Shown here: positions 1 to 50,600 of the stretch, piece after piece
Layout of the letters: every line of letters starts with the position of its first letter
How positions within the stretch are numbered: the stretch's first letter is position 1
Source of the DNA: Ulota crispa
Lineage: Eukaryota > Streptophyta > Bryopsida > Orthotrichales > Orthotrichaceae
Reading direction: 5' to 3'
Assembly (NCBI GenBank): GCA_963920765.1
Contig: OY987250.1
Coordinates: forward strand, 10,160,409-10,224,408
Length of the DNA: 64,000 bases
Program-made: the position numbers and the translations under genes
The notes under the pieces: model-generated
Told to the model about the DNA's origin: nothing
Seen by the model: only the letters and a program-made list of their open reading frames with translations
Database searches by the model: none

Positions 1-675
1 TTCATGCTTGTGTGGTTTTGAATGGTAACGCTTCATGCAAGCTTTGATTGAGAAGAGCATTATATTTCTACAAAGTAGGGTTTCCCGCCTTTCCAATATG
101 GCTAGTTTCACACAAAATAGATAAAAATAGCAATCACAAAGTGTAGCTAAGTGAACAAAAAGGGTCAGAAACCCCACTTTCTTTGCTACCCTAAAATGGT
201 TTTACAAGAAATTTGACAAGTGTTATGGAAAATCCGATTAGTGAAAAAATCAATAATTGACCTTAAATGTAGGATGACAATTTTATAGATGAATTGACAA
301 CACCATTTCAGTAGATTTTCAAATACTACAATTGTACTACTACCATATAAAAAAACAAAACAAGCGTAATTCTTAAGCAACTTGAAATTTTTTTGGATTA
401 TGCAATTGAGGTTTAAAATTTTTCTTGCATATTTAATGTATAGTGTTGTTGCTTTGATTCATCTTTGACAAAAAAAAGATACGTATTTTGAAGCCATGTT
501 GTATATATATCTTTATATGTCAACTCACATATCCATTTCCATTGTTATTTTTTTAGATGGATACAAAATTCTTGTGAATACATAAGTTCTTCAAGATTAA
601 ATTCCAAATTGTTGAGCAATTTCAATCTAAAGGCCAAAAATCACTCCCTGCAACCAAAACATGGTCCTGTGGTCC
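1..675. other. AT-rich non-coding stretch
   Basis: No convincing coding region on either strand; only short chance open frames interrupted by poly-A and poly-T runs. It ends at the TTAA that flanks the first small transposon. Confidence 0.6.
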
Positions 676-679
676 TTAA

Positions 680-1587
680 CCCTAAAGGACCAAACCCCCT
701 TTTTTAGAAACATAGCAATTTTGGGCAGGTACTTGTGATTGGAGCTTTTCATATTTTAGGCTAAATTTTTTATAAAATGTGGGGACAAGGTTTATCTTTC
801 ATATGCACTAACTTTCATGACATTTGGAATTATGAGTAAAAAGTTATGGCCTAATATGTTGTTTTTTATGTTCGTCGGGCAGCCTGAGCAGATTTTTTAA
901 AATCACTTTTAAAAAAAAATTTAAATTGGTTTAGGAGATTTATGTGAATGTAGGAAGCTTTGAATCATTTTTTTTGGATCAATGAGATGAAAGTTATGAG
1001 GATTATTTGTTTGCAGGCATTTATGGATTCCTTACTCCAAAATAAACTTTGAAGTCCTTTATTTTATTCAATTTTCAACATTTTTGAAAAAAATAAAAAC
1101 CAAAGGATGAAGATTGTTTATGACAACATTACAACCATTGGGATTGGCATTTTACATTTCCATAATTAAATTCTTAACAATTTAGTGTTTTGAATCATTC
1201 TCTATTTCTTTTTACTAACTAATTTTTTTCTATATGTTATGCAACTCCAAATGATTTGAAACTTTTTTGACATGTACTTTACTTAAGTAGAATAAGGAAT
1301 TTAGAGAAGCACCACCCACATGGCCCTTTTTCCTTAGGAATTTCACCTTCTAAAGGGTAGCTGCCCGATTTTTCACAAGACGTTTTTGAATATTCAAACC
1401 ATTTTAACTTCCAATCCATGTGGTGGAAAACACTGCAATTTTTTCCACATCTTTTAAAACCATTCTTTTACAAGATCTTATGCTTACACATGTCCAAAAA
1501 TGTTTTTGTTTTCAAATTTGGTTGATGCTTTAGAAATGGCAATTTTGAAGAGTTTTTGGTGAAAAGTAAGCCTTGGTCCTTTAAGGG
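680..1587. mobile_element. TTAA-flanked MITE, copy 1
   Basis: The left end reads TTAA then CCCTAAAGGACCAA. The right end is the inverted counterpart TTGGTCCTTTAAGGG followed by TTAT, so one flank has lost a base of the TTAA duplication. About 0.9 kb, no coding capacity. The interior shares short phrases with the copies at 38054-38975 and 55646-56582, for example a 'gcagcctgagc/gcctgcccga' segment and AAAGTTATGGCC-like words. TTAA target duplication with termini starting CCC is the signature of piggyBac-type transposition. That assignment is inference because no transposase is present. Confidence 0.6.
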
Positions 1588-1631
1588 TTATTGGGGTTTT
1601 AGAGCAACTACCTTAACGGCTCTCTCCAGGT

Positions 1632-1680
1632 CACCTTGCCACCCTTGCCACCCTCGCCACCCTCGCCACCTTCACCACCA
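1632..1680. repeat. 9-bp C-rich tandem repeat
   Basis: About five imperfect copies of a CGCCACCCT-type nonamer. It lies in a short GC-rich island that also carries a duplicated 'aacggctct' word. Confidence 0.6.
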
Positions 1681-1950
1681 TGAGCCTTCCCTAACGGCTC
1701 TTTCCAAAGCTCACTTAGCCACCTTCACCAATTTGCCACCTTTGCCACTTTGGCTTCCATAGAGCCTCATCAACCTTTTAGTCGTGCTGTCTCTCTTGGA
1801 CATTGCCCTCTCTCACCCTTGGATTCTTTTCTTTTGACATTTGCAAATAATTCAGAGGTATGAAGCCGCCCTCCAAGACCTCGGCTTCTTGGAGGGTTGA
1901 TAGGATTTGTGTTAGAGCATTGCCTTCTAAGAAGGCATGGAGAAAGGTGA

Positions 1951-2003
1951 AGGGGAGGGTAAAGGGGAGGGTGGAGAGGGAGGGTGGAGAGGGAGGGTGG
2001 AGT
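1951..2003. repeat. G-rich AGGGTGGAG tandem repeat
   Basis: Runs of AGGG and GGGTGGAGAGGG repeat just upstream of the CCT8 fragment. The G-runs are spaced closely enough to allow G-quadruplex formation. Confidence 0.6.
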
Positions 2004-2064
2004 GGTCATACTACAAAGCTCTTTGCCTCGGAAGAAGTTATCGCTAGAGATACCTGGGAGCGTA

Positions 2065-2709
2065 GATGATTGCGATGGGAATCCCTCCATTGTATTGGAA
2101 GAGGTGATGGCGCGGCAGAAGGAGATCAAGTATGCATGGAATATTATGGAGTCTTTTGGCAGAGAGCTCTTGGGCTGCGCGGACCAGCTCATTTACACAG
2201 AGTTACATCCCAGCAACATCATCTTAGGCTACGCCAAGGCTTTGGAAATTTTAGAATTAGACACCATGGACGTCCGCGACGCCAAGCATGTGATGCAGCA
2301 GATGAAATCCGTGGTTGCAAGCAAATAATACGGCCAGGAAAGCATTCTATGCCCTATGATTGCCAACGCATGCATCCAAGTGTGTTCCAAGAACCTGATG
2401 GATTTTAATGTTGGCCGTGTCCGCATCGTTAAAATCTCTAGCAGAGGAATCCATGACACTCAAGTAGTGAGTGACATGGTTTTAAAGAGCGAGTTTGTTG
2501 GCATGATCAAAACAGCACGCAATGCAAAGGTCGTCGTCTTCAGAGGCGTTATTGACACATTTGTGACCAATATAAGTAGTGGTTTGAAACTTAGGCAGGA
2601 TGTCATTTTCGATGAGGCAAAAGTGGAGGAGCACATTAAGTCCATTGCAGCAGCGAGAGCCATGGTTGTTGTCAGCGGAGGCACAATTAGAAAGATGGCA
2701 TTGTCCTGA
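2065..2709 (+). pseudogene. CCT8: CCT8 (TCP-1 theta) retrocopy fragment, middle part
   Basis: The translation matches the chaperonin-containing TCP-1 theta subunit, a cytosolic ATP-driven folding complex. It covers roughly the second fifth of the protein up to the segment normally reading VSGGSVGEMALHF. Recognisable segments are FGRELLGCADQL, LHPSNIILGY, MDVRDAKHV, ACIQVCSKN, MVLKSE, EAKVEEHIKS and VVVSGGTIRKMAL. A frameshift lies near 2328 after VASK, and similarity stops at about 2703, just before TGA TAG. The region is continuous with no introns, so a processed retrocopy is the simplest reading. The first third and the whole C-terminal half are absent here. A C-terminal piece of the same family lies at 26667-27073, in the same orientation and non-overlapping. 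No expression or function is expected. Confidence 0.88.
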
Positions 2710-2789
2710 TAGATATCTCTCTATCATATAGATACTTGTTTTTATTTATATTTGTGTTGATTTCAATAAATCAACAGTTATGGCAAAAA

Positions 2790-3060
2790 AAATGGTCATA
2801 GTGAGAACCTCGGTTTGGTGACAGCGCAACGGCCATAGATTCCAGTGTGCTGTGCCATCTTGTCATATGCACAATTCAGGGGGTAGATAGCGGGTTTGCT
2901 GGACCAATTTCTTATCTCATTAGCTGCCAAGCCACAGGCCACCGTCACCGCTCCACGAGTTCAATGGGATTTGAACTTGGATCGGCAGGTAGCCGGAGAT
3001 GGCCGCTTCTCCAGCCAATCAAGTCCACGGCTTGGCGAGTGAAGATAATCGTTTGACGCT
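2790..3060 (-). repeat. Possible tRNA-derived SINE (weak)
   Basis: On the minus strand a TGGCTGGAGAAG word (A-box-like) is followed about 33 bases later by AAGTTCAAATCCC (B-box-like), and the sequence ends in a T/A-rich tail near 2790. Box spacing suits a Pol III promoter. No cloverleaf could be drawn and no target duplication was found, so this is tentative. Confidence 0.2.
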
Positions 3061-4486
3061 ATTATATGCTTGCAAGGGCACGTGGCCATTTTATGGTGGT
3101 GTTTATTTTGTAATTTAATCATTTTTATATGTTTATCTAAATGTTTTAGAAGGCTCATATATTTTGCCTTTGTTTGAATAAAAAAGATACTAAAGATTTA
3201 GATGTGAATGAGAAAAGTATGAAAAGAAAAATGGTGAAAGGAAAAGGGGTTTGGCATCTATGGTGAGGTTAGGATAGAAAGGGGCATGGGCTGATGTGCC
3301 CCACCTCTCTATCCTAAATAGAGTTGAAATTAACGGGGAAAGATTCCTTGGTAGTTGAAAGTTAGTAGAGGAGTGTTGGTGAGAAAAGGAAAGAAATCCC
3401 AAAACTTTGATGTGAGAGAATTTTTTGTGTATATATGATTTTAAATTAAAATTTATAGGAGTTGTTTTTTTTGTGATCACCTTTTCAAAATGAGTTTGCA
3501 AATTTGATTTGGAGTTGTGATGCAAAAATCATAAGTGTTTGAATTTTGAAATCAAAAAGTCAAACCATGAAGAAAGGCTGAAACTTTGATAAGCCATAGT
3601 TTATGATTTGTATATTATTTTGCAACAAAATTTGAAAAAAGTGTTCACCTTAGTCTTAGATTTTTAAAAAGTCTTGAAACTTGAGATTTGAAGCTTGGAA
3701 GAAAAAGTTATGGAGGTGTGAAGAATTGGAGGTAGTTGCCCTTTTGTTATGTGAAGGCCAAAACTTTGAAGAGTTATGATTTTTAGATAGTTTGAAATTT
3801 TCTTTTCAAAATTTTAGGAGTGATATTTTATTGTAATAGCTTTTTGAATTGTCTTTAATCATTCCATTTGAAGTCTTATTGAAAAAGTTATAATATATAG
3901 AAGTTGGGGGTTTGGATGCTTTCTAAAAAATGGAGATCTTCACTTTGATTGACTAAAACTTATGGAAAGAATTTTATTTTGAAGTGAAAATTTTAGGAGT
4001 TTTAGCTAGTAATATCATTTTTTTAAATTGCTATTATATTTTTATGGGTGATGTGTAAAACAAAAGTTATAAAGATTTATAGATGCAGTGTTTAGTTCAC
4101 AAGGAGGAAGAAGAACTTTTACTTTGAACTCGTTTAACTTTTGGACAGTAGTTTAGATTGAATTGACATTTAAAGGGATGTTAGAAGGTTAGAAGAGCTT
4201 TCAAATTTGCTGTTACATTTAGCATCTGGATCTTTGAACTATCTGTGGCACTAGATAGAAGGTCAGAGCCTTTCTAGGATTTGTTGTTTGTGATTTTTTC
4301 CATTGTTTTTATTAAAATATGAAGACTTGAAGATATGAAGACTGAAGATCTGAAAAGTGAAGATCTAAACTGAAGAAAAATTTAGTCAGCAACGCACGAT
4401 TGCAGCGAGACATTGTGTGTGTTTCCAATGCGCGCTCCTCTCAACCTAACAACGCTAGCTAGAGAGGCGGTGATGGCTCGCATAGC
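3061..4486. other. AT-rich non-coding stretch with degenerate repeats
   Basis: No gene seen. Words such as AAAATTTTAGGAG and AAAGTTATGGA recur at irregular spacing between about 3660 and 4080. A GAAGATNTGAA-type purine repeat occupies about 4320-4376, directly before the decayed gene. Confidence 0.5.
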
Positions 4487-7400
4487 ATGGATATACAAGG
4501 GAGCCAAGCAAGTCGCAGTACTAGAAGAAAGGAACAAGTATTTGCGTAGGCCGCTCCACCGTCACATCGCAAATCAAGAGGCACTCCTTTCACTACAACA
4601 AGGAAGACTGCAATAAAAGTTTTAGTACTTGTTTCTGCAAAGAGCAATTTCACATCCGCCGTCATCCAAATCTCTAAAGCCGAGGACTCTAAACAGGCAC
4701 CTGACTACAAGAGAGCTGCAAAGGCATACAAAGCATATTGGGCAAATTGCTTGCAAGCGTATATGTATAAGGACATTGATGATAAGCACATCCTGCCCAT
4801 TGATCAGCTGGTGGAGGCACCACCTTACATGAATATCCAAGTTTATGAAGATATGATTGTGAAGGATGTAATGTGGTACTTGGTGAATATGCTCGACAAG
4901 TCTACAAAGCAGACCCTTTGCGTTATACCAATCATGTCAGAGGGACACACGGAGAAGCCCGGCGCTTGGGAGACCATTGAAAACAAGCAGTTCTACATCA
5001 TCAACGGTCAGCATAGCGTGGCTGCAAGCAGGATGATGCAAACCAAACCTAACGTCAAGGAAGACGTGAAGAAGCACTTCCATGTCTGGAATTGCTACAT
5101 AGTTTGGTCGACTGACCACTCTCTGCTACGCATGATATTGGTGTACTACAATAGGGTCAACCACTTCTAAGCAATCAAGCCGTCGTAGGCGACTAGCATC
5201 ATTGGAGCAAGAGCCGGGTGGGAAACCATAGATAGGTTAGAGAACCCAAGCATAGCAAAGGCCGTCGGGACTATGCAGAGCATGCGGCGCACAAATGAAA
5301 ACAAAGCAATAGTCACGCGGTTCAGAATAAGTACTTTAGCTCAATTTGACCTGATATGCAACCGTCTTGAATTCTTGTAATAGTTGTACATAGTTCAATT
5401 CAAGTTGATTTGACCTAAACTGCATTGACTAATTTGCATTCATGTTGTGTACATCAACCAGGTGTTCACAAATGTCATAAACACTCGCTTCTCTCAGCTA
5501 GATGTCGTGAAGACACAAAAAGAAGTAAAGGGCAAAGATACAGAGGAGACGATGAAGATTACAAATGAGCTAAAAAAAATCACCGCCTTTGACAAATTGT
5601 ATGACCTCTAGAGCAAGGTCATCAGCAGTGCAACGCAAGGGAAACTCTTGGACCCAAACACCATGGCAAAGTTCAAGAAAAAAAAGGAATGGCGAGCGGA
5701 GAGCCAAATGATGAATTAGGAGTTCTTCAAGTGGCTTGGTAACCTAACTAGCGAGGACCTTACAAAACTTGCCTAGCACATCCTCAACTTGGATGAGAAC
5801 AGGCCATATCCATACCCGAAGGTGACATTGAGATTGACCTCTACGCTGTTCAGGAGTTGCTACACCTCCAGGGAATGGGCCGAGAGGAGGAAGAGGAAGC
5901 ATCTGGTCAAGAGGGAGCTTCACGAGTTGTATAGGAGTCTGGAACTGATGGATAATGCAGGGGAACTCAACGCGGATAAGTGGAGGGAGTTCAAAGAAAG
6001 CCGCAATATTACAAGTGCGACGATGAATGCACTTCTTCAGCTCCCGGGTGAAGAGTTCTACAGCAAAGCCAAGCAAGTGAAGTGCAGGAACAAGAAGGGC
6101 ACCAAAATCTCCCCTTATGCTGCTGAGTTTTTTTTACTTTTCTTAGAGAGAAAGTCAAATTTTGTGCCTAGTGATTTGTATGGATTCTTTTGGCCTTACA
6201 ACATCCTGAGAAGTAAGCATATGGATTGGCCGCGAGGTACGTGGGTGCCCGACACGGAGAAACATTTTTCCTTTGGGATAATGGACTTTCGGTACTTTCC
6301 AAGTGTGGCAAGGAAGGGAGAGACTGCTCTGGCAGCACCGTTCTTCCTTAAAGTGATGAAGGGGTTGGACAAGAAGAAACAACCCATGCTGCAAGACATT
6401 CCTGCATGGTTGATCATCTACGCGGATGTGTACAAACAGACTATAGCAATGAAACTTCATTGACAACAATAAAGTCTTGAAAGGGTACAAGAGGGACTTT
6501 GCAAACTACTGGCCTGCGAGCAACAAACGCTTGGGGAATTTCACTGTGGGCAGCAATAACGCTAAGCAGAAGGTGCACTTGACGTTCTTGCAGAACTCCA
6601 CAAATGCAGTATTCCAGGTTCCCAAGAACAACTACTTTGCTCCGGACACACTCCAGTACACAAAGTTGCGTTTGTACAACAAATTGGAGGCGATATACAA
6701 CATAGAGCTGCAGATGGAGTTCTATTTGGGGATAACAAAACAATTATGCCCTCCCGAAACGCAACTTCTATCAGTGTTTGCTGGTTTGAAGCTGACGTGC
6801 GCCGCTCTGATAAGTCTATTAAGGTCGATTTGAGCTGAATTACAATATTTGCATATATATTATTAGCGTCATTTTGCTTCTCCTTTTGATGTTCATTTTG
6901 TCAAGTCAATTTAGCTCAATTTGAGTTGAATCACAGTATGTGCATACAAATTCATAATATAATGCTTAAGCATGCCATTCACACTATATGAGGTCATTTC
7001 AAGTTGATTTGAGCTAAAATGCAATAATTTGATATGTAATAAGCCAGAAATTAATAACCGTGATGATTGATTCCCCAGATCATTTTAGCTCAAATTGAGC
7101 TAAAATACAATGTATTATCTAAGACTCATGTATGTGTCTGGATGTATTGTGTTCTAGATGAACAAGACAAATACGTTTGCCATCAGAGTGAAGAAAGAGG
7201 GGAAGCAATGGGAGGACATTACTGTAACGGCCGAGAGACTGGACATGCAAGATTTCTTGCACAAGGTGTACAAAGTGGACGAGCAACGCTTTAGAAGAAA
7301 GGGGGATCCAAAACAATCCACTGGCAAGAAAGCAAAGGAATTGGTTTGGGACTCGGATTACGCACCATCCACCTCAAGTTGCCCTTTGAGGTCAAATGCT

Positions 7401-8350
7401 CCCATCTCATTGTACGTGGAGGTTGACTCCGACATGGATGAAGAAGTCAAGGACTTGGACAGTCTCGACGACGCATCGGAGATGGACTTGCCGGCCAGGA
7501 ATCTGTCCCAGGAGCTTTTGACTTCCTAGATACGTCCGTTGTAAAGGATTCCCGCCCTGCCGTTAATTGCCAGCCGGTCGCAGTCCAGAGACCCGTTCAA
7601 TTCTCCGCCTCGTTCAACACACTCAACAAGGAAGAGGAAAGAAACTGAATCCGAGATGCAGGCGGCAATCAAGGAGTTGCAGAGCCAACGAGAGAGGGAT
7701 CTGGAGAAGGCAGACTTGGAGCACTTGAAAGATTGTGAGGCTTGACTGAAGGAAAGGCAGGCCACAGAGTCCCGACTGGACCAATTGGCCAAATTTCTTG
7801 AGAATGAGTCCATAAAAAATGCGCAGAGGTTCCAAGAGATGATGAATCAGACAGGAGGAGCAGTTCCAATCTAGTCGCTAATGCCCCCACCCGCCCAAGC
7901 TCCACTATTGATTGCTCACACGGCCGGTCCTTCAGTCTTCATTGCCGTCCCAATTGCGGCACACGTTACACCGATGGCTATGGCAATCGGCCCCAGACTT
8001 CAAGAAATGCCTCCCCCTCGAGCAGTGGTGGCTACAATTGCTGTGCCTATATTCCATGATGTTGTCCAGTAGGCACGGCTTGCATTTCCCGGAGGTAGTC
8101 GTCTAACCATTGGATGACTACGCCTTCACAATCCTTCAGCGCTCTCCCCTGCCTGCTACTAAGTCTCCACTTTGACGTTGTTCTCATCGTCTTTGGCGGG
8201 TCAAGGCTACAGCTGCTGAGATTGAAACTACCGACAGCCTCACAAAATCCAATGGCATAGTGGTCAATGAGGACTTTGAGGTCACGGTCGAGGACCTTAG
8301 TGCAGTAGATTGCAATAGTCAGCTGATTGAGAAACCACATTTCTCCTCAG
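4487..8350 (+). pseudogene. Decayed multi-exon gene with N-G-Q-H (ParB/DGQHR-like) domain and coiled coil
   Basis: Family not recognised. The ATG at 4487 follows an in-frame TAG at 4460. The first exon (to about 5325) encodes a basic head, then LPIDQLVEAP, and FYIINGQHSVAASRM with N-G-Q-H at residues 173-176. This resembles the motif of ParB/DndB-type DGQHR proteins. YYNRVNHF and a PS(stop)ATSIIGAR segment follow. Exon 2 (5462 to about 6809) has a charged region and motifs such as DMDWPRGTWVP-like and IPAWLIIYADVYK; a one-base insertion near 6457 shifts the frame. Exon 3 starts at 7158 after TTCTAG. It has an acidic linker, then a KRK-rich and Q/E/K-rich coiled coil (about 7620-7860), then a proline-rich tail, ending at GGTGAATT (8350). 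At least seven nonsense codons and three frameshifts show it is dead. Both early donors read ATAAGT instead of GTAAGT. It may continue into the phosphatase-like region downstream, since the introns share repeats. A transposon-borne or expanded host gene family are both possible. Confidence 0.6.
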
Positions 8351-10057
8351 GTGAATTCATGCTATCACTCAATGTCAGTTTTGTAGTTTTGGGTCAACTT
8401 GAGCTAATATGTATCATACTTTGCACATAATTGTACATAGAGATGGATTTTATAGTTTCAGCTCGACTTGAGCTGATTTGTATCATTTTCTGTACATAGC
8501 TGTATGTAGAGATCAATATCAAGGAATATAGGTTGTAGTATACTAAACCAAAGAGTTTGGAATTTTCAAACATAATTTTGTATTCACTTTACATTACGTG
8601 ACTCTTTAAAAATAATTATTACCTTACAAACCATCTTTGTATGCAATCATGACTGGCAAGGTTTGAGGATGTTGTGTGTGTATCGTCATCCCCTTGTTAT
8701 GCAATTGTAAGAAGTCCTCTGTTGTTGCCCACCTCAATGTCTATTGATGTCACCCTGCCAGTTCCTTACTTGTATGCAACGTCATCACTCCAGTCACCAC
8801 CGCGCTAGAGCTCTTATACTCAACTTCAGGAAAATGCCATTGCAGGTGGCGCAAGTGCATATGTTTGACCTTTCCTTCATATGCGGCATTGCAAGAAGAG
8901 GCTGGACCCTCGAGTGAACCATTGGAGAGCTGGGTAAGACCTCCTTCTTTATTTACCAAGGCTTTCTATTGTATCCTCCCTTATTTTATCTTCCGTCCAA
9001 TTGCGTTTGATTGGTCATGCCTTCCAATTGTGTCGCGATGTTTCCTTTCTTGTGTCTTCTTGAAATGTGCCAGTACAAAAATATAACTGTCTGCACATTT
9101 GCAAATGTTGGTAGCAGAAGTCTCACCCTCCATACACGCATGGAGGAATGTCCAAGGCCACCAATCGCCCATTGAGGGCAACGGCAAACCCAATATGGCT
9201 GATTGTTGTCTTAGATTTGAATGGGGTTTTATGTATCACCAAAGATGCCAAGTCAAAGGGCTGGCTGAATGCATACTATAGCATTGTGAATCCCCCTGCC
9301 ATCTTCCCTGACATTATAGCAGGGCCAAAGGCCGTGTTTATGCGTCCGCGTTGCGTTAAATTCTTGAGACAGCTCTAGAGAATAGCCTACGTAAGTGTGT
9401 GGAGCTTTATGGCGTTGCACAATGCTAAAAACATATGCCATTCCATTTTTTGAGATGTGATGTTTCCTACGCTTTTGGTCAGTCAGGAATCTTGCACCAA
9501 GTTGAAGTGCCAAGATTCTCACAACAAGGTGGCAACTTATAAAGTACTAGGGACTAGCAAGGAATTGTTTCTAAAGAACCTAGATATGTTGTTCAACGAC
9601 TACGTGAGTATATTCAAGTTTTCTAATACGATAATTGTAGATGATAGCCCCATGAAGCACGTCATGAATGCTCCAGAGAATGTTATCCTCACAAATCCAT
9701 GGACTTACAAAGGAGATGGTCGGCTCAACACGTATCTAATGGATGTGCTGCTTCCTTATATTAGGAACCTGCACAAAGTTGGTCAGACTGGGTTTAAGGC
9801 CTTTTGTCAAAATTCCTCGAAAAGTATTGAGCGTAGAATGCTCCATGACAAAGAAGGTCGTCAAAATTACAACAACTTGATGGAGGTCGTGTGGCTATCC
9901 GGTGAGCTTGGACAGAGGCGGGCAGTTTAGATCAACTCGAGCTATTTGGCACAATGCTAAATGAACTCAAGTAATCATCCGTTAGAAGATTGCAACAGCT
10001 GCATTTGTACATAGTCCAACCACAATGTAATTTAGGTCAATTTGAGCTATTCAGCAC
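5341..10057. repeat. Intron-confined repeat motif family (ten copies)
   Basis: A motif near TCAAYTTGAGCTRAWWTGCA occurs at 5341, 5404, 6824, 6911, 7003, 7082, 8393, 8461, 9931 and 10036. All lie in the non-coding gaps of the decayed unit and none in its exons. The copy at 7082-7106 is a perfect palindrome with 12-base arms around one central A. A second word, TTGTACATAG, follows four of them (5384, 8431, 8490, 10005) at 30 to 75 bases. Confidence 0.75.
8846..9901 (+). pseudogene. Decayed FCP1/NIF-like HAD phosphatase domain
   Basis: A short exon (8846-8933) ends PSSEPLESW before GTAAGA. After an intron, a long frame (about 9118-9901) encodes the FCP1/NLI-interacting-factor fold. Motif I is LIVVLDLNGVLC at 9199-9234. 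Then come VFMRPRCVKFLRQL, a VSVWSF segment, and motif III TIIVDDSPMKHVM near 9628. An NPWTY segment and the helix GRLNTYLMDVLLPYI complete it. Family members dephosphorylate serine/threonine using DxDxT; here the second Asp is Asn (DLNG), a variant also known from plant members whose activity is uncertain. Two nonsense codons (9376, about 9454) break one otherwise continuous frame. The likely donor is GTGAGC at 9902. It lies 0.5 kb after the N-G-Q-H gene on the same strand, and its introns carry the same motif, so the two may be one gene. Confidence 0.72.
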
Positions 10058-10345
10058 GTAGGATTGTCATGTAGATTTCTTGAGCGCTAGAGCTTGCATG
10101 CACTTGTTTTCTATATATCATTTTGAATCTCCAATCAAAAATTCCTTATAAAGAACGCCAAATATAAATTGACATACCACTTTTCACCATGTGCATTGGC
10201 GTCTTTGTTTGGGATGTGCTAAATTTTATTTTAGTATGCATGCCTTTGAGTATTGTTTTGCAATATTTTCTTTCTGTAATCCCTTTGTTGCTTCTATGTT
10301 TTAATTTGTGTAATTCAATGTCATGTCACGTGTTGTTGATCTTGC

Positions 10346-10720
10346 AGATTGCTATTTGCAAATGTATCCTTCCTTGCGAAGCATCTGTAGACTCCATCTT
10401 AACTATGGACAGTACAATATCATGAGTACTGGAAATTTCTTTTACTCGGTTGCCACGGCAAATTCTACTATGGACTTCTCTAAGGGGCACATGGATGAAG
10501 GTGTGGTGGACAGTCTACCATACACAAGACTCCCTAAACTCAACACTTCCTTGCCTCCTACTTCAGTTTCCAAGCGTTCCCTCCCTTCTAAATTGTCATT
10601 GCATATTGCTGAGAAATTGCCACAGATTAGGCTGTACAAAGAAATTGAGACAATATTTACTATATGGCCATGAACTCCACCGTGATGGGCGGCAAGCAAA
10701 AACATATGGTTGGTAGTCAT
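10346..10720 (+). pseudogene. Last coding piece of the decayed unit
   Basis: After a pyrimidine-rich tract ending TTGCAG (about 10346), an open frame begins CYLQMYPSLRSICRLH and runs to LYKEIETIF. A frameshift then leads to YGHELHRDGRQAKTYGW and a TAG at about 10714. The frame shift, the intron-like gap from 9902 and the shared repeat motif in that gap tie it to the phosphatase-like region. The sequence is not recognised. It could be the C-terminal exon of the same gene. Confidence 0.4.
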
Positions 10721-11620
10721 CCTCTTTTGACTTCGTTACCAATCAATCGCGCCTCGCCTCAAAATGGGAGAATTAGAACATGTAATGGAAAACCATGTAT
10801 TGTACGCGGTACTTGAAATTTGAAGGCATGCATATTGAAGAACAAGGAGCTGCAATGGTTGAAGATGTAAGAGCAATTGCAAGCGACTGACAATAAACGC
10901 AGTTGAAGTCTAGAGATTTAGAAGGCAATGAAGAAATTGTAGATCACATTGCACAATTGGCACCTATATTTATGTAGATAGAAACACTTCCACAAAATCA
11001 CAATTTATACTATATAGCAAAAAGCAAAGACCAATCATGGACTATTGTCTATTAATAGAAACATTTGTTGTAATAGAAGCACCATGTATTCATTTTCCTC
11101 CAATTTTAGAAGGATCGTATGTGTAATTGCATTCACTTCCATGTATATAAACCGCCCAAATCCCCTTCAATACATGTTTTTGGAGCTCTCATTTAATTGG
11201 AATACTCTCATAACAAATAAGGTGTTATAAGAGCCATTCCTTCATTTCCAACATTTTATATCAACAAAGTTGCTTGCAACATTTTTACCAAAGCTTTCAT
11301 CAGTACATTGACAACAAAGATTTTGAACTCTCTTATGCTGCATATGTACTTGAGGAAACCGTAATTGCTATATACTACTACATGTTTTTAGCTGCTTGTT
11401 AATTTTTATACAAGATTGATATCCCTAAAGCCCACATATTAGCTTATAATACATGTGTGAGACTAGAAATAAGGACGTGCAATATTGAATGCATCCTAGT
11501 TGTTTTTTTAGTATAATATATTGTTTAAAACACTACAATGCCATGTCCATCATTTTACATACAAAATTACATGATGTGAAGCACTTCTTCAGTAAGTCAG
11601 TACCATGTTCACAAACAAAT
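10721..11620. other. AT-rich non-coding stretch
   Basis: No gene seen. CACTACAATGCC at 11531 looks like a CACTA terminus but lacks subterminal repeats and a matching target duplication. Confidence 0.5.
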
Positions 11621-16563: not shown

Positions 16564-19500
16564 GTGCTTTGCAGAAGGTCTAATTCACGTGATTCCTTCC
16601 ATGGACAGAGTTTTGGAATGGAAGACATGGCAGATGCTGAGTCTTTGGATTTTGACATACCATCCGATGAAGACGTAGATGTCGAAGAAGAGTTTACTGA
16701 TGCACAAGAGCATGTCGACCCAATAAACATGCCGGAAGGAGCAGAGGTTAACTTAATGGATATGGCTGAAAACTTTTTCAACTGTGTGGATGACATCCAC
16801 CAGCACGATACAGATAGCGAGGAAAAAGGCATTGACTTGGACAAAGATTTTAGTGGAGATAAGGATGATGACTAGACAGATCTATGCAACAATTTAATAG
16901 AGGAAGCCTCAAGTCCCCTCTTTCCAGGCTCTCGCGGAGTAGCAGGTTATAATTCAATATCATACTTATGTCGTTGTGCACGCTCTTCTGCATTAGCAAT
17001 TGTTGTCTAGACAAAATCTTGTCATTTCTTAAAAATGATGTCCTTCTAGTGGGTAATAGCTGTCCATTGAACTCTTACAAAATTAAGCGTTTTGTCTTCA
17101 AGCTTGGTCTCTCTCATGAGAATATGCATTGTTGCAAGTGTGGGCAAACATTGTATTGGAAAGATAATTCCATGTTGGATAGATGTCCGGCTTGCCAAAA
17201 GTCTAGATATGTCCCTGGATCTACATTAGTGCCCACTCATATATTAAGGTACTTTTCTATCATTAAGAGGTTAAAAAGAATGTTCAAATGCCCTGAGATA
17301 TTGAGACATATGAGGTAGCACTCTGAGAACCACTCAACTGATAGGAAGCTCAGATCTGTTGTAGATAGTGAGCAGTGGAAATTTATAAATCAGAGTTTTC
17401 CAAGCTTTAGTCAAGACCCAAGACATGTGAGAATGGGGCTTGCATTTGATGGGATAAATCCCTACAGCCTTCAATCCTCACGTCACTCAGTATGGCCGAT
17501 CATGATTACTTTTTATAATCTACCACCATACCTTTTGACTAAAAGGTTTTTTATTAGCCTAAGTATGATTATACCAGGGCCAAACTCACCATTGGAGGAC
17601 ACCATAGATGTTTTTTTACAGCCCCTGATACTGGAGCTCCAAAAGCTATGGAAGGGCGTATTTGCAATCAACATGTTCAAGACTGAAGACAGAAAGCAAT
17701 ATTTCATATTTTGTAGAATATTAATGTGGACAATTAACAAATTTCCGGCTTACACTCACATAGCTAGACAAGTGGGCAAAGGAATTGCAGCTTGCCATGT
17801 GTGTGGAGAGGGCACAGGAGGTAAGCATTCAAAAGAAGCCGACAAGACCATATACCTTGGGCATTGCCAATGGCTAGACAGTGATCATCCTTAGAGAGAA
17901 GCTAGAGCTGCTTTTGATGGTGATAGAGAACATTGTGCAGCCCCTCCACGCCATAAGGGTGCAGATGTTGTTTGTCTTGGAGAATTGAGAGAAGCGTACC
18001 TTCAATCTGGTGGTTGTTGAGGTGGAGAGCACGATCCTGTAAAATGTACAAGGGTTAAGAGAGTGAGCATCTTGTTTTGACTGCCTTACTGGGAGGTACA
18101 CCCTAAACCTTTGTTATGCACTTACTTTTGATAATGTGGATCACAATTCATGTGAGAGAATACTAGAATAGAATGTAAGCTATTATGCAACATGATGCTT
18201 ATGTGTCATTGCATGCTTCATTAAAGTAAATGTGGAAATGTGGTTAATACGTGAGCAGAGAAAACATCACAAAGCTCATTAGCTATTTCAGGAAAGGTCA
18301 AGGCAAGTGAGAATATTTTCCAAATGCTCTTATCATTTAGAACTACTTTTTAGTAATAATGGATAATAATTCTTGTTACATTTTTTGCATGATGTACTTT
18401 TAGTCATTCAAATTAAAGATTCCCATATTGTTAATGAAATAATGAGATTCATTAGCACATGCTGTCTATTAACTATAAAGAGTAGGAACTACTTATGCGG
18501 GTCAAGTGTGACAAGGGACAAAATAAAGCAGCAACTGTAATGTTTCGGATTATTTAGAAGGTTGTAACATTAAAAATAAACTACTGTAAGTGTAAGTTTT
18601 TTTTAAATGAAACTTGAGAAGTACAGAGCAATTGTTGGTGGGTAGTTACTTAAGGTTAGGATGTCAAGATAGTAGTTGATATTTCACCTGAAATGATAGA
18701 GTCAGAATCAATTCAGTTGTGATTACAAAAAATCGGGACATGAATGAGTATAAAGTAGGGTTCACATGATTTCCATAAATTTCACTCTTGAATGAAAAAA
18801 CCTTTTTACTAGAAGCAATAGAGGATTACTTGTTACCATAATGTAGAATGACCAAGAACTACCAATCTTAGTTTGTGTACATAAACTCAAATTTTATGGA
18901 CAGATTGTATTATAAACAAAAGAGTAAGAGCTAAAGTGTTTGGGTGGGTGGGTGGGTGGTTGGGTGGGAGGGGGGGTTTGGAGGGAGGTTGATTAATTCT
19001 TATGCATTGCTGAGAAAAAAAGTAGCAATAATCATTGCTTCAAAGAGCGCTGGTGACAAAGAAATAAGATTCCTACAGACTGTAATAAAATGAATTGAGT
19101 AGTGGTTGCTATGTTTGTGTTCAGTTGGTCAGAAGTAGGTAATGGTCTCAGCACATGCTTAGTCCGAATAAGGACTATTGAATTCAGTACATGAATGCTT
19201 CAAGTTCTTACTAAATAGAGTTTCTAACGGAATTCTCTATCTTAATGTATAAAAAATTAGGAATTTGTAAATTTATAATTCTCTGCAGCAATTCCTTTAA
19301 TCATGTGGTTCTTTATGTGCTTTGTAATGAAGCATCATCATGTTTGTTTTAGTTCATTGCACCTTTTTTTTTCACCCTTATATTTTCAGCATTGTTGTCA
19401 TGTTATACAAAACAATCTATGAAACAATTGCTTGAGAATTTCAGTAATCATTGACGTTGTTTGTTCATTTTGTAGAAACTTTTGTGCATCATCTTTTGGA

Positions 19501-20370
19501 TTCTATGCACATTGAAAAAAATGTGTGCGAGAATTTAATTTAAACGCTATTAGGTGAGACTGATACTATCAAGTCAAGGGAGGATTTGCGCGCTTGAGGT
19601 ATTCATGCACACCTTCACCTCTAGCCTCATGCAGATGATTTAACGTTTTTTAAACCAAATGCTCCGTACATTTTAAGGCGCAGCAAGAAGGATCAATTTT
19701 TTAGCATATTAAGGCAGATCAAATTCCCAACTAATTATGTGGGTTCCATGAAGCAAAAAATTACAAACGGCAGACTCTCTGGTTTGAAAACACATGATTT
19801 CCATGTATTGTTGCAACAAATCTTGCCTATATGTCTAAGGAACATTGGGTCAGCCAATGTTGTGGGGACAATTATGAGGTTTAGCAGGTTATTCCAAAAA
19901 GTATGTGCTAAAACTGTTGAAGCAGAAAGAAAAGAACAGATGCTACAGGAAGTAGCTGAAACTATGTGCAGTCTAGAGAAAGAGTGTCCTCCTTCAATAT
20001 TTGTCATAATGATTCACTTATGTATTCATGTTGTAGAGGAACTTTTCATGTGTGGACTCATCCATTGTAGATGGATGTATCCATTCAAAAGGTACATGAA
20101 AGGTTTAAAAGGGTTTGTAAAAAATAAAAGTAAACTTGAGGGTAGTATGACTAATGGGTACTTGCGTGAAGAGTTTGTGGGATTTATAACAAAATATCTT
20201 TCAAACTACACACCTACAACTACAAGAGTTTGGGATGCTGAGGAGGAGCTGTTAGTGACTGATGAAGTTTTGGAAGGTGGAGGAAGAAGCCATTTCATGT
20301 CCAATGATTCTTTGAGCTTGGCCCACAGTTTTGTGCTAGACAACGACAAGAATATGAAAAGCTATAGTAG
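16564..20370 (+). pseudogene. CACTA tnp2-type transposase with DUF4218-like region, broken
   Basis: An acidic D/E-rich segment (16.62-16.87 kb) leads into the zinc-binding CCKCGQTLYWKD and CPACQKSRY. The tnp2 core follows: GLAFDGINPYS, YNLPPYLLTK, ISLSMIIPGP, DVFLQPLI and WTINKFPAYTHIARQ. ACHVCGEGTGG and YLGHCQWL come next. Two TAG codons (17316, 17892) sit where family members have Trp, and a TGA breaks the LPYWE segment near 18078. After a long intron-like gap the exon at 19476 carries the family hallmark DSMHIEKNVCENLI. The DUF4218-like part follows: LKTHDFHVLLQQILP, PPSIFVIMIHL and CRWMYPFKRYMKGLKGFV. This exon ends at GTAAGT (20371). The protein would excise and insert CACTA elements in the nucleus; this copy cannot be made. 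A frameshift lies near 16.97 kb. Confidence 0.9.
18091..19475. other. Non-coding gap (intron-like) inside the transposase
   Basis: Lies between the LPYWE exon end and the TTTTGTAG acceptor before 19476. It contains a strong G-run tract at 18942-18988 (about ten runs of three or more G). No coding potential seen. Confidence 0.6.
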
Positions 20371-20807
20371 GTAAGTAGTATACTCAAGGATGTGGTGTGA
20401 TTGTATATGGGCAATTACCAAGCAAAATTACGTACAGCAATTTTTCTTTTAGGGGAATTTTCATCTGAACGAGTTGGGCTTGATGGGCTAGTTCTTTTGT
20501 ATGTAGGCAAATGCTATTAGTATCATTGAATAAGTGGCATTCTCAGCATATTATTAGTTGTATTGAGGCTTTTTAATTTATGACAATGCCTTCACTTTCA
20601 CACAATTGCGCATTAATTATTGTAGGTAGTGTAGGTTCACTTGCATTTCAGTTTATATTGTTATGATTTAGGGAAGTGTGAGAATTAAATATAATATGGT
20701 AATACAGTACTAATATTTTTGAAATTCAAGAATAACTCTACCAAATACTGCGGAAAAGATACAACTATAATCTACCAAAGGGCATAATTAATTTTGTATG
20801 ATGTTTC

Positions 20808-38053: not shown

Positions 38054-38975
38054 CCCTAAATCCCTGAGTGTCCCCTCGGGGGACAAATGAGATTTTCAGG
38101 CAGGCACTTACAACCTCAATTTTTGTCTTGATATTTTGAAACTTTTTCCAGAAGATAGGAAAACACATTAGCTTTTGGGAAATATAATTTTTATTCCAAT
38201 CCATGCCCAAAAGCAAAAGTTATGCCTAGATAAGCAAAAATTTATGGTGATCAAGCAGCAAAAAAAATTACAAAAATTAATTTTTATTTTTATTATTTTT
38301 TCTTCTCAAATGCTATAGTTTTGTATACATCTGAAGCTTTGATTCATTTCATTTGGACTAGTTATGAGAAAATTAAGGATAATCTTGTTTTTTGGGCAAT
38401 TCAAGCATCTTCTTGAAAAAATAACTTATAAACTTCATTTTTGAATGCAAGTTTAACATTTTTTCAAAAAACGTTGTTGAAGAGGGTAAAGTTTGCTTTT
38501 TAGAACAATTTTGTCATTGGAATTATTGCATTTCAATTCCATTGCAGGGTTATTAACAATTTAAGTTTTTGTTCAATCTCAGACTTTCATCCACCTAATG
38601 ATTTTTTTAAGAATGAAAATTAGGAATTTTTGGTTTTCATTTTTTTCAAAGATTCTTAACTCAATTTTCCACCATAAAAAAATAAACCTCAAAACTTTGC
38701 AATGCAAAAAAATTAAGTTAAAAAAGCTCAAAGTTAAATAATCTAATCATGCAAGGTGCAAAAAAGCTTGTTTTTTACAATTCCATTGCAAACATCTTGC
38801 GATCAATGTGGTCAAAATTTATGGATTTTTGTGTGCACATTCTTATACAAGTCTAGTACAAGATCCTATGGCTAGATATACAAAAAGACCCATTTTCAAA
38901 CTTTTTTACTCTTCGCAACAGAGATCGCAGTTTTGGGTGTCTTTTGACAAAATAAAGGCCCCAGGGATTTAGGGG
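38054..38975. mobile_element. TTAA-flanked MITE, copy 2
   Basis: TTAA (38050) then CCCTAAATCCCTG; right end CAGGGATTTAGGGG then TTAA (38976). The ends are near-perfect inverted repeats with intact target duplication. 922 bp, non-coding. Confidence 0.8.
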
Positions 38976-39377
38976 TTAACCTTTTAAGGACCGTGGTTGA
39001 TTTGGGAGGTGGGCAATCCTTTGTATGGCCATTTGGGGGAAATTTTCAAACTTTTGAATACAAATGTCTACAACAGATCTGACCGTACAAATGGAAGTAT
39101 CTTGCAAAGTTTAGTGTTATGCATCATGAATTATGCTCACTCTTTAGTTGTTATGACCATCTTTTTACATTTACAGGTCTATTTTCAGCCGGTACTCTTT
39201 TAGTTTTTTCAACCCTCTAGCCACATGCCACCTTGGATTGGCCTGGTTATTGTCCTAAACTCTTCACTTTCCAATTCCCCAAATCTGTCCCCTTTGCCAA
39301 ATCATCAAATTCCTTGACATCTCTCTATAAACTGAAAAGAGTCAAAATTGACCACAAACAGTTCGACCGGTCCTTAA

Positions 39378-43300: not shown

Positions 43301-45499
43301 TGTCCAAACTAGTACGCCTCAAGCTCAAGATGCTGGAGAGTACTTACTGTCCACGTTCTATCAGGTTCGAGATTTTTGAATGCTCTTTTCATCGTCAAAG
43401 ACAGATTATATTGTGGAAAGTGTTGGTAAAAGCGGAGTTTGATGGCAGTTTTTTAATGCTTTTTTGCAGGTGTATGCAACACTAGAGTTAAGCAACGCAC
43501 AAGAGGCTTTCAATGACGCAAAACAGCTGAGGCAGGAAGCAGGTAGTTTGTTCAAACTGGGCTGCCTGAGTTTGGAGCAGCGTGCTCAAGCAGATGTTTT
43601 ATATGAGAAGGTGTGTCAGCAGGTGATTCAGTTTGGACCTCACCTTCCCAAGGAGTTCAAGCTGTCCTTTCCAAGCATCTACACTTGCAATGTGTCTGTT
43701 TTCCGGTCTGCGCCGGATTCATGGGCTATCAGTCAGATATTTCCTGTGATGCCTTTGCACCGTTTGAACGAGAAGCCCACTGTGGAGGCCATCCTTGCGG
43801 ACTTAACCTGTGACAGTGACGGCAAGATCGACCGATTTCTGGGTCCTTCAGGCGAGGTTAGCAAAGTGCTGGCGTTGCATACTCTACAGAAGGCAGAGCC
43901 TTATTTCCTGGGATTGTTCCTTGGGGGTGTATACCAGGTATGTTGTATAGAATATGTCACAATATCTATCTTTCTCAAACACAAAACATGAAGAAAAGAA
44001 AAAAACTCCACGTACAACGAACTCTCCCTTGAAAGTTCAGCATAGTGGAATTTTTGGACTGCAAAATAAGTTTTACGTAGTTGGTGCAAGGTATTTGAAA
44101 AAATAGTTAGTGATTTTATACATCGTCTGTACTTGTGATATATGAGTAGAGTAACTACACCTACTGTTGATTCTTACCTAAAAGCTACTCCTCTAGATTC
44201 TTGCCTGAATTTTTACATCTCGTGAACATGAAAGCATACGGGCGTACCCCTTAAATCAACACTCTGAAAATTCGTAGTTTTCTCATAGGGAATTGATATG
44301 CGTACCACACCTTCTTGACTATCCCACCACACCCCGGGGTAAATTTTAGATTTCTACCACCAAAAAGCTGAATTTGAGAATTTGGAATTCAGATTTGGAC
44401 TTGGAGACAGTAATTTTGTCTAGAATCACAAAAAAATTCTAATTGAACAACACCCAATGAAAAAGCTTATCTTTTTTACAAACAAAAGTAAAAGTAATAC
44501 TTTTCCCCAGAGCTAAGCTTTTTCATTGGGTGTTGTTCAATTAGAATTTTTTTGTGATTCTAGACAAAACTACTGTCTCTAAGTCCAAATCTGAATTCCA
44601 AATTCTCACGTTCAGCTTTTTGATGGTAGAAATCTAAAATTTACCCCGAGGTGTGGTGGGATAGTCAAAGTGTGGTACGCATATCAATTCCCTTTCTCAT
44701 ATAGGGCTCAAAAAATATGCAAAGATGCATCTCTTTTGACGCTCAACAAATATTAGCATAGTCTGTCTTGTTTTGTCATTTTTTGAGTGTAGTTACTCAA
44801 CAGAAGCCCTTGGTTTTTTTGAACACTCATTATCTGCAGGAATGGAGTTCTCTCATATATAGGGCTCAAAAAATATGCAAGATGCATCTCTTTCAACGCT
44901 CAACAAATATTAGCATAACCTGTCTTGTTTATTGTCGTTTTTTGAGTGTAGTTACTCAACAGAAGTCCTTGGTTTTTTTAAACACTCCATATTTGCTAGA
45001 ATGGGGTTTTTCTCATATAGGGCTCAAAAAATATGCAAAGATGTATCTCTTTCAACGCTCAACAAATGTTAGCATAGTTTGTTTTGTTTGGACGTTTTTT
45101 GAGTGTAGTTACTCAATAGAAATCCTTAGTTTTTTTTTAAACTCCTTATTTGTGCAGGAGATGTTGGGAAGTGCGCACAATCTGTTTGGTGGTGTACACA
45201 TTGTGCACCTGCGAGCATCCGGAGACGGTGGCTTTGGTGTAGACCATGTCCTGCCTGGCCAGACTGCAGGGCAGGTGCTGAGTGGCACGTATCATTGTCG
45301 AACGGAGTTGCTGAGGGAGCTGGTTACGCAGGTCACGTCCGCCGTGGACGCCGGGAAATTGTCACAAAAAGAAGCCAATCAGTTGCGTGACAATTACCAA
45401 CGTTGCTTGGATTCTTATACTTACTTCAGCATGCCATTAGATTGCTCACATGAGAAAAATCCGAGTCAGACTCTGCGTTTGTACACGTCACTGCTTTGA
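40381..45499 (+). CDS. ADC: Arginine decarboxylase (ten exons)
   Basis: Converts arginine to agmatine and CO2 with pyridoxal phosphate, the plant route to putrescine. Exons: 40381-40714, 41099-41253, 41756-41926, 42072-42143, 42256-42435, 42642-42776, 42880-42966, 43095-43364, 43470-43937, 45158-45499. They join in phase to 737 residues, near the family's usual 700-720. A basic, Arg-rich head with a seven-Gly run (plastid targeting possible) precedes LYRLHAWGAPYFAINSAG. The PLP lysine is in VFPIKCNPE (about K173); the phosphate-binding loop is DVGGGLGIDY; SESGRALASHSSV and catalytic LTCDSDGKID (Cys about 582) are intact; FLGLFLGGVYQ and SAHNLFGG lie at the C-terminal side. The start is GCCATGG, a strong context. 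Intron 3 starts with GC. Intron 1 holds a 200-bp duplication. Intron 9 (1220 bp) holds a hairpin transposon and a triplicated 3' segment. All active-site motifs are kept, so it is probably functional. Confidence 0.96.
44288..44692. mobile_element. Long-hairpin MITE with 9-bp target duplication in ADC intron 9
   Basis: 405 bp, almost entirely a palindrome: the arms (44288-44470 and 44515-44692, about 180 bases) pair with few mismatches around a 44-base loop. The termini GGGAATTGATATGCGTACC are exact inverts. The perfect direct duplication TTTCTCATA flanks it at 44279-44287 and 44693-44701. Nine-base duplications with long terminal inverted repeats are typical of Mutator-like elements. Transcription through the intron would make a long double-stranded hairpin. 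Confidence 0.88.
44695..45157. repeat. Tandem triplication at the 3' end of ADC intron 9
   Basis: Three units of about 147-160 bp start TCTCATATAGGGCTCAAAAA at 44695, 44851 and 45011. Each ends in an acceptor-like segment: CTGCAGGAATGG (about 44839), TTGCTAGAATGG (about 44994) and the real acceptor TGTGCAG before 45158. A frame open across the units is in phase with exon 10. Confidence 0.88.
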
Positions 45500-47679: not shown

Positions 47680-50600
47680 TTAAGGTCTAGTATAGTACAG
47701 AGAGTTTGGAAGCTTAAAGACACGTTTGCCGGTTGCCTCACCAGTAAGGTCACTCCATTGATCTCCAATTCCAGCCCAAATACGGAAGCCCTTGTTTTCA
47801 AGCTCCAGCCTGGCCTTTGTCTTAAACTCCACTACTGGTCCTGGTTCCGACCTGGTTGTAGAGTAATCACCACAATCTTAGCACATGAGTCAATCTCCAA
47901 AATGAAAACTCAGTTCTACTATTTCAAGGTGGAATAATATCAAGGTAGCCATGCCCCAGGCGACAACAAGGACAAGTTACAGCAAAGTATTTGGCCCAGA
48001 ACTCACTAACCTTAGAATAAGAATATAGTCTTCGTATCCCACATTATTCAAATTTTTTACAGTTACATGCCGTTGATGTTCTACTCTATCAGAAACGACG
48101 GCAAAGCTCCAGTTCAGGGCTTTCAGCTCCTGGTACAAGGACAACATTGGTCCCAAGGGAGGCATTTTTGCAAGTTCCACATAGCTATCCCAGACGTCCT
48201 GCTTGAATAGATCCGCCCTGCACAGAAGCAAACAGAAACAGCATTAGTCAAGGAAAATCCATTTCTTCCATCCACCTGGTATCCAGCCTAATCCACTGCA
48301 TGAGTGAAACTTATCAAAAACATCAGCAACCAGCAAAAGCGGTCCTGCTTCAAAAATTCTTTCGGTTAAACCTCGGCAGATAATAGAACCAAAGTTTCTG
48401 CTGCAAAAAAGCTATAAAAAAACATGATCACAATGAACACATCGACATCAAAAACAAGTAATCTAGCAGAGAAGGTCCATGGCACTCATGAGCAAAGAGT
48501 ACTACCAGCAATGCCTCTCGCAGCGTCTCTGTAACTTTAGAGATGAAAACCATTGTACCACAGGCTGGCATTTCGAGATGAAACATCCTAAAACTTCCTC
48601 ACTAGCTTTTGTTAATGCAAGGTCTCCTCTAGAAATATGCATTTAAGCCCGAAGTGCTTCTATGTGCATATATTTTGAAAAGTGCTTTTAGGAGAAGTTT
48701 CCATTATGTACCAAGTCTTCACTCACTTAGACAATACCTACAGAGCAACACCTTTTGAGTATTTTGGTGCTTACTTTGCTCCAACAGTTGGTTTAGTAAA
48801 AACAAAAATCCAACTAGAGAACCTAAGTCTCGACAAAAAAAGTGCACATATTATTCAAGCACTTTTATGATGTACTCCCTCTGTCCCTCTGAAAACGTCC
48901 AAAAAGCTTCCTTGCAAAGGATTAACTGTGTTTTTAGTCTTTGTGCTAGTGACACATGCACTCTAAAATCAATATACCATCCACCAAATGTATGCAAACT
49001 CTCCAGTTTTGATATCATTGTTTAGGGACCCAAATTCCATGCAAAAAGTACCATATTTGTGCATGTAAAGATTAATAGCAATGGTACCTTATATGGGCAA
49101 GGCCAAGCTTGCTAGGAGAGGTATGCTCCCTAATCGCTTAACTTGCCCCCATGAGATCATTGAACATGGCAAACGCTTTCTTAGCTTTTGAAATCAGCAA
49201 AAGGAAGCTTTTTAGTGGTACAAGAAATGTGTCTGATTTGGACGTTTTTAGAGGGACAGAGGGAGTATCTTTTTGTCCTTTTGGGAATGCTCACCCAAAA
49301 TGGTGGCGCCTGAGTAAAGGAAGGCTGGACAACATGGTGTCGTCCAGGTCAAGGATGACCATGTCTTGACCATCAGACGACGCAACCACTGCCGCTCTCA
49401 AGAACGTTCTTGCTGCGTCGACGGCGCTTGCAAAGTCCAGATAATACTGCCCCGAGTCCACATAAATTTGTGCGTTTATAATGCAGTCCTGTGGCAGAGT
49501 CCAGTTCTGGAAATTGTTCAACTCTGCATTCAGAGCGAAGCTGGCACACTGGTTGGGAGTCTGCAAAATGATGGGCTTGTCTTGGCATTGCCCCAACAGA
49601 ATGGACAGTGTCACCACCACGGTGAACAGCAGGATCCCTAACGTTGCCAAGGCGGACAAAACGATGGTCACCGCCAGAGACGATAAGTAAATCCCGGAGT
49701 CGTCTATTTGAACATACGTGCTGCCAAATCCGTACCTGCTTCCATATACTGCACACAACCGACCAAGTCTGGTGTTTCTCAAAAATTGTCCAAAACATGA
49801 GCACCACTAGATTTGCAAGCAAAATCAACTCGGAAAGGAAGGACACATCAAATCCAAAAGTGCCACTTCATCAGGTGTTTCTCAAAGCTTTGTTAAACTA
49901 GTGTACTGTACTTTCCCTTGATCGCTTACTGTACCTATTTGTTGTAGATGAGGTTTTAAAACCTCTACCAGTATGACTTTCAGCTTTCATAACTTCTATA
50001 TAACCTTCCCATTTGGTTGTGTAATGGATTGATAAAATCTTTCAGAGATTGTCCAAAACATGAGCACCACTAGAATTGCAAGCAAAGTCAACTCGGAAAG
50101 GAAGGACACATCAAATCCAAAAGTGCCACTTCATCAGGTGTTTCTTTCTCAAAGCTTTGTTAAGCTAGTGTACTGTACTTTCCCTTGATCGCTTACTGTA
50201 CCTCTTTGTTGAAGATGAGATTTTAAAACCTCTACCAGTAAAACTTTGAGCTTTCATAACTTCTTATATATAACCTTCCCATTTGGTTATGTAATGGAAC
50301 GATAAAACCTCTTTCACTTCTCAACAAGAAAATGAAACAATTTAGATCAGTCAAACAGTAAGAACTAGGCTCAACAACAATAGTGACATTTTTAAGTGTC
50401 CCACCCTTATAAGTAGTTCTCTTGAAGCATCACTGAAACTGCAGGCAAAGTCAGATTCTAAAATAGGGACACTACGATTCCCAAAAGCGGTACTTTATCT
50501 ATTGCTCTATCGCCAAAGATCAGCAGCAATTCTAGAACATTTGCAAAAAAAACTTTGAGGCTCGGTAATTTTTGTATCAAGAATCCAAATAATGTATGAT

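Follow-up and report, generated by a model that had tools for sequence, protein, structure and literature searches.

The catalytic loop of FCP1-type phosphatases has the canonical form DxDx(T/V), with Asp at its first and third positions, and a motif of the type [ND]GxH invites comparison with ParB/Srx-type domains, such as those of ParB, Srx and DndB. DNA transposons can carry the gene of an enzyme, as is reported for fungal elements with a TET/JBP dioxygenase gene (PMC12730594). The locus described here, in the bryopsid Ulota crispa, brings an N-G-Q-H motif and an FCP1-like domain of the HAD superfamily together in one gene. It lies in a window of 64,000 nucleotides (assembly GCA_963920765.1, contig OY987250.1, designated C9, C9:10160409-10224408), to which all positions given without a contig or locus name refer; the genome searched amounts to 274.8 Mb in 157 contigs. 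Very probably the gene belongs to a mobile element, the unit in the window then representing the 3′ part of a copy, now silenced and decaying, of a large DNA transposon family; this reading is based on a 3′ terminus shared by the copies, on the existence of miniature elements with matching inverted repeats and on the pattern of selection. The initial annotation had left the choice between a host family and a mobile element undecided, and these three lines of evidence now place the gene strongly on the mobile side. In the titles and abstract openings among the literature matches listed, no such gene or element is described.

A broken gene present in dozens of copies

The initial annotation had drawn from 4487 to 10720 a series of frames on one strand, joined by plausible splice sites. 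These frames, read on the + strand, are real and constitute one co-linear, spliced and broken gene, and the surviving unit is larger than first drawn, extending from about 4454 to about 11226. Its limits are set by the homology to the sister copies L025, L026, L028 and L033, which starts at ~4454 or later and ends at ~11226, the closest sisters being about 75-88% alike to the window, in alignments, continuous or interrupted, that cover ~6.8 kb of nucleotide sequence. The unit (4454-11226, + strand, like all its parts) would thus be what survives of a single decayed element copy, truncated at its 5′ side and with its 3′ end present; the cut 5′ side is adjoined by an unrelated repeat (2699-4452), which is found within L027 and at the L038 locus as well.

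The first part of the gene to survive is a broken exon (4487-5326) containing the N-G-Q-H domain, with the motif YIINGQH read directly at 4994-5014, three in-frame stops (4547, 5168 and 5186) and at least 62 matches in its own genome. It is followed by intron 1 (5327-5461), whose donor is ATAAG in the window and GTAAG in five of five sisters, and by the exon of the middle domain (5462-6460), which is interrupted by TAG stops at 5609, 5717 and 5774 and by a frameshift near 6453, its remainder continuing in the shifted frame (6453-6809). Intron 2 (6810-7157), again with ATAAG in the window and with GTAAG in three of five sisters, contains four copies of a palindrome to be discussed below. The acceptors of introns 1 and 2 are AG in three and four of six copies, respectively, and AA in the remainder, a pattern as would be expected from decay. 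A linker with a coiled-coil part (7158-8350), interrupted by stops and frame changes, leads to intron 3 (8351-9114, approximate limits, three palindromes) and to the FCP1/NIF-like HAD domain (9115-9924), which has internal stops at 9376 and 9451. Beyond it we place a putative intron 4 (9925-10347, two palindromes), unless the TAG at 9928 is the true stop, and a C-terminal exon (10348-10670, STMDFS...DEGVVDS) that is retained in other copies. The outlines of introns 3 and 4 are less certain than those of introns 1 and 2.

Genome searches yielded at least 62 matches for the N-G-Q-H part, at least 58 for the middle part and at least 60 for the HAD part. Merged into clusters holding any of the searched modules, they amount to 71, of which 36 hold all three; N-G-Q-H and middle parts occur together in 8, middle and HAD parts in 3, the HAD part alone in 14 and the N-G-Q-H part alone in 10, one of the latter corresponding to the 5′ part, now detached, of the C1 copy. 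The copies compared were twenty, fetched at 10 kb each. The order of the modules (N-G-Q-H, middle, coiled-coil linker, FCP1-like HAD) is identical in dozens of copies, so that the suggestion made at the outset, namely that a single gene pairs both end domains, is upheld by the frequency of the three-module clusters and by their constant order. This co-linearity also rules out a chance juxtaposition, that is the accidental alignment of unrelated pseudogenes on one strand, whose probability, given in addition the long nucleotide alignment with the sisters, is practically nil. Other copies have, before the N-G-Q-H domain, an extra N-terminal domain of ~130-170 residues that the window copy has lost; all frames are broken in the window copy and in the seven other copies whose translations were examined.

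The shared 3′ terminus and the miniature elements

The homology between copies ends at a tail whose commonest form is CTCTCATTTCACTGGAATACTCTCATTATAACAAATATGGTGTT and which in the window occupies 11186-11226. Of 21 loci, 18 were read as far as their 3′ end, and in all 18 the tail is recognisable; the other three are L027 and L036, which extend past the fetched stretch, and L038, which is without its 3′ half, and the tail of the L027 copy is visible on a separate reading. In 13 of the 18 the tail closes with GTT, the deviating copies being L031 (in which the tail was identified by eye only), L032, L034, L035 and L039. The tail has been kept in spite of a protein similarity of only about 35% between the subfamilies.

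When up to 3 mismatches are allowed, the 32-bp core of the tail is found at 181 genome sites (89 forward and 92 reverse), a reversed control giving 0. One of these sites, L045, is a 309-bp element bearing the tail inverted at its opposite end, and each of the 40 candidates scored for this miniature family, from 946 in a first look, can be aligned over 299 or more of the 309 bases, at 83-100%. In 13 of these 40 candidates, at the reporting threshold used, the 5′ end contains an inverted match of 25-28 bp to the 3′ end. Two of three miniature copies read are flanked by 4-bp target duplications (ATTC and TTAG), while in the third 3 of the 4 bases agree. The 32-bp core is the terminal inverted repeat (TIR) of a ~309-bp miniature family; the inverted repeats that define a TIR transposon are present at both ends of the miniature elements, and in the large copies, as far upstream as they were read, the 3′ copy alone was seen. 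An origin of the tail from a long terminal repeat, to which the resemblance of tail plus window flank to a primer-binding site had pointed, was rejected, the flanks differing between copies and the miniature elements carrying the tail inverted.

Selection, decay and intronic palindromes

Within a subfamily, differences are spread fairly evenly over codon positions 1, 2 and 3 (.164/.143/.185 between L025 and L026;.147/.107/.167 between L031 and L034), whereas between subfamilies they are strongly biased towards the third position (.377/.215/.561 between the window and L029;.237/.187/.542 between L037 and L038). Because of these two patterns, we read the history of the family as one of purifying selection while the elements were active and of nearly neutral decay after insertion. 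Among the private changes of the window copy, as compared with four others, 147 of 198 are C>T or G>A, falling, as counted in the window copy, on 25 of 352 CG, 29 of 396 CHG and 93 of 2095 CHH sites; a C-to-T excess of this kind is as would be expected of methylated, silenced repeats.

A 21-bp palindrome, TTTAGCTCAANTTGAGCTAAA, is found (with up to 6 mismatches) at 11 sites in the unit as against two in the remainder of the window, the average over 100 shuffles of the unit being 0.53. All 11 lie inside the introns as drawn, and in three of the four introns the first of them starts within ~10 bases of the donor. Fifteen of the twenty other copies were scanned and contain 6 to 17 palindromes each (179 in 131 kb), three miniature elements contain 2 or 3 each, overlapping sites being counted apart, and 2 are present in L046, a 9-kb stretch from the upstream side of the C2 copy. 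Genome-wide, with no more than 1 mismatch, the palindrome is found at 165 places (control 0), and some of the places listed fall on miniature copies. The occurrence of the same palindrome both in the introns of the large elements and within the miniature elements provides the best hint of binding sites used by the element, and the intronic arrays offer a binding target that is directly testable.

These data bear also on the alternative that the copies are a host gene family, made of dispersed paralogues and pseudogenes, with a miniature transposon inserted 3′ of an ancestor. Functional host paralogues would likewise generate a third-position bias between subfamilies, and some of the ten clusters with the N-G-Q-H part alone have long open frames, such as the 394 codons at C7:442465, partly read as L048. 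On the other hand, the tail is where the copies cease to be homologous, even in deeply split subfamilies, introns and miniature elements have the palindrome in common and the frames are broken in the window and in the seven other copies translated, so that we hold a host family to be unlikely.

The domains of the protein

In the window, the latter half of the HAD part matches the NIF family (PF03031) with E = 2.8e-6 and 27.5 bits, above the curated cut-off of 21.8, and is therefore a member of it; L013 reaches 56.1 bits, and all 16 rows of the alignment match at E <= 0.1 (best 4.5e-15). There is, in addition, a weak PDB match of the HAD part to a CTD small phosphatase-like protein (E = 0.014). 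The loop, which in the window reads DLNGVL (9214-9231), has the form DLNG(I/V)L in the eight copies read (window, L013, L029, L032, L037, L039, L040 and L043) and departs from the DxDx(T/V) required of an active FCP1-type phosphatase. Thus, of the FCP1-like phosphatase named in the initial annotation the homology stands, while the activity is doubtful since Asn replaces the second Asp of the DxD loop in every one of the eight, and the domain may be no phosphatase at all.

As to the N-G-Q-H domain, INGQH[ST] is found in most of the family rows that cover the motif and is changed in some. A structural model computed from 16 family rows is weak (pLDDT, the model's confidence score, 54) and gives in succession a strand (122-127), a second strand (148-151), the N-G-Q-H motif, a helix (158-165) and a further strand (183-186), an order of elements that would fit the ParB/Srx fold. 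On the other hand, no ParB/Srx match was listed for this weak model by Foldseek or VIA, which returned low matches to other proteins only, and sequence searches with the domain against Pfam, PHROGs, NCBIfam and PDB gave nothing or chance-level matches. Aligned by hhalign with YbdM and seven phage relatives, the family's NGQH is set near DGFH at a non-significant P = 0.18; no phage relatives of the N-G-Q-H domain were found, and one scan of IMG/VR with the distant relative L048 gave no match. Motif and predicted strand order suggest a ParB/Srx fold, and the ParB-like module proposed at the start is a candidate in this sense, the sequence, profile and fold searches having provided no significant match. 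The middle domain produced chance-level matches only, including one to the helix-turn-helix family DUF2089, with E = 0.028 and well short of the cut-off of that family.

The relative just mentioned, L048 (C7:442300-443249, - strand), is stop-free over the 950 bases read and contains an N-G-Q-H domain, WAINGQHTVKAAQ, that is distant from the family; no HAD part was found near it. By its sequence, L048 shows that the N-G-Q-H domain exists outside this family, and it may be a host gene or belong to another family of elements.

The upstream side and the distribution of the copies

The large element is long, its C2 copy measuring at least 18.0 kb with the nested miniature elements counted in. The pieces of L046 that were queried (6500-9000, matching from 7226 on, 4380-6300 and 1-3160) are 93-94% alike in four copies. 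A 5′ boundary at L046:7226, sharp in the four copies, was considered and rejected, the position being the site of another miniature element in the C2 copy and the homology continuing past it. This common miniature element, which has TTAACCCCTAAAGGACCA termini and mimics a 5′ boundary, lies at L046:6301-7229 and is present also in the window (38071-38979); among 40 genome candidates scored, 36 agree at 93-95% with the right ~730 bases of the element, and further pieces related to it are found in L046 and L033.

A number of observations weigh against a mobile-element gene. Pieces up to 9 kb further upstream are still homologous in the four copies, and a 5′ terminus was never reached; an inverted partner of the 3′ tail was found neither in the first 3 kb of 14 copies nor in L046, and the target duplications scored are those of miniature copies. 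No open frame of 110 codons is present in the 9 kb of L046, and a Pfam scan recognised no known transposase in the family's own frames, the part beyond L046 being unread. The distribution of the copies points the same way: of the six groups in a tree of 21 copies, two (L030-L036 and L039-L040-L044) are wholly on C6, and 22 of the 71 clusters lie on the 6.3-Mb contig C11 and 13 on C6 beyond 18.7 Mb, together 35 clusters on some 4% of the genome, a concentration far exceeding a uniform distribution, to which local duplication may have contributed in part. In favour of a mobile element, the members of the four other groups are on different chromosomes. That C11 is a sex chromosome is only a guess; with this family, the concentration of copies on a small contig and at the end of a chromosome becomes a second testable question.

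A possible mode of action

The product of the gene comprises, in this order, the N-terminal domain lost in the window, the N-G-Q-H and middle domains, the coiled-coil linker and the FCP1/NIF-like HAD domain. If the gene is that of a mobile element, this protein would be needed for the spread of the element, whose large copies would have the same inverted repeat at their 5′ end. The N-G-Q-H/middle part most likely binds the DNA of the element, the palindromes being candidate sites, while the HAD part would most likely serve for docking, perhaps to RNA polymerase II, and not for catalysis. The enzyme that cuts and joins the DNA would be either this same protein or another, whose gene lies further 5′ or is provided in trans. 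A far bolder version, which we consider very unlikely, would have a ParB-like protein handle the transposon DNA itself, loading on the parS-like arrays of 21-bp palindromes in introns and miniature copies and bringing about synapsis or even cutting, coupled to RNA polymerase II through the catalytically altered FCP1 domain.

The gene could instead be a passenger, an ordinary gene captured long ago by a TIR transposon whose transposition enzyme is encoded elsewhere, its protein having no part in the DNA steps and perhaps aiding expression or the escape from silencing. The NIF domain is of a known family, the introns are spliceosomal and no nuclease or transposase family is recognised in the protein, all of which would suit such a cargo; what speaks against it is that none of the subfamilies seen has lost the gene, which is under selection between subfamilies, this retention being read from gene-seeded searches, to which large copies without the gene are invisible. 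A passenger is accordingly a possibility that we entertain, if with some doubt; being itself a version of the mobile-element reading, it is included in the confidence expressed for the latter, so that the two estimates overlap. A conserved mobile-element gene that is not a recognised transposase would reveal either a new eukaryotic way of moving DNA or a new helper of transposons against the host.

Other features of the window

The window also holds the remains of a CACTA-type transposon (16953-20371, + strand), with a tnp2 transposase (PF02992, E = 6.6e-53) at 17319-17891 and DUF4218 (PF13960, E = 1.4e-25) at 19625-20371. A tnp2 frame (PF02992, E = 2.9e-51) is likewise found outside the window, at L025:8885-9979, where it immediately follows the 3′ tail of the C2 copy. 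Between 27969 and 29758 of the window there are open frames of 142, 289 and 191 codons, the first two being without a Pfam match at E <= 0.01. An acid phosphatase (PF03767, E = 8.5e-14) at 49294-49806 on the - strand and an arginine decarboxylase helical bundle (PF17810, E = 4.1e-14) at 43443-43988 on the + strand are probably parts of ordinary host genes. A scan of the whole window with Rfam at gathering thresholds gave no match.

Comparison with known systems

The family resembles the class II TIR DNA transposons and the miniature inverted-repeat elements derived from such transposons in the inverted repeats and the short target duplications of its miniature copies, in the dispersal of the copies and in their decay after insertion; it differs from them in that the sole gene seen is no recognised transposase and in that its copies attain ~18 kb or more with nested inserts. 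With the reported fungal TET/JBP elements (PMC12730594) it shares the presence of an enzyme gene besides or near a transposase, the gene and the host group being different and no transposase having been found here.

The likeness to the ParB/Srx-type proteins (YbdM and phage ParB-like proteins) consists in an [ND]GxH motif that lies between a predicted strand and a helix, and in the hydrophobic pattern, whereas the family rows have Ser or Thr after the His, and not Arg, and lack a significant sequence, profile or fold match. Finally, the profile matches relate the C-terminal part to the NIF/FCP1/SCP family (PF03031), from which it is set apart by the DLNG loop and by being joined, in this gene, to unrelated N-terminal domains.

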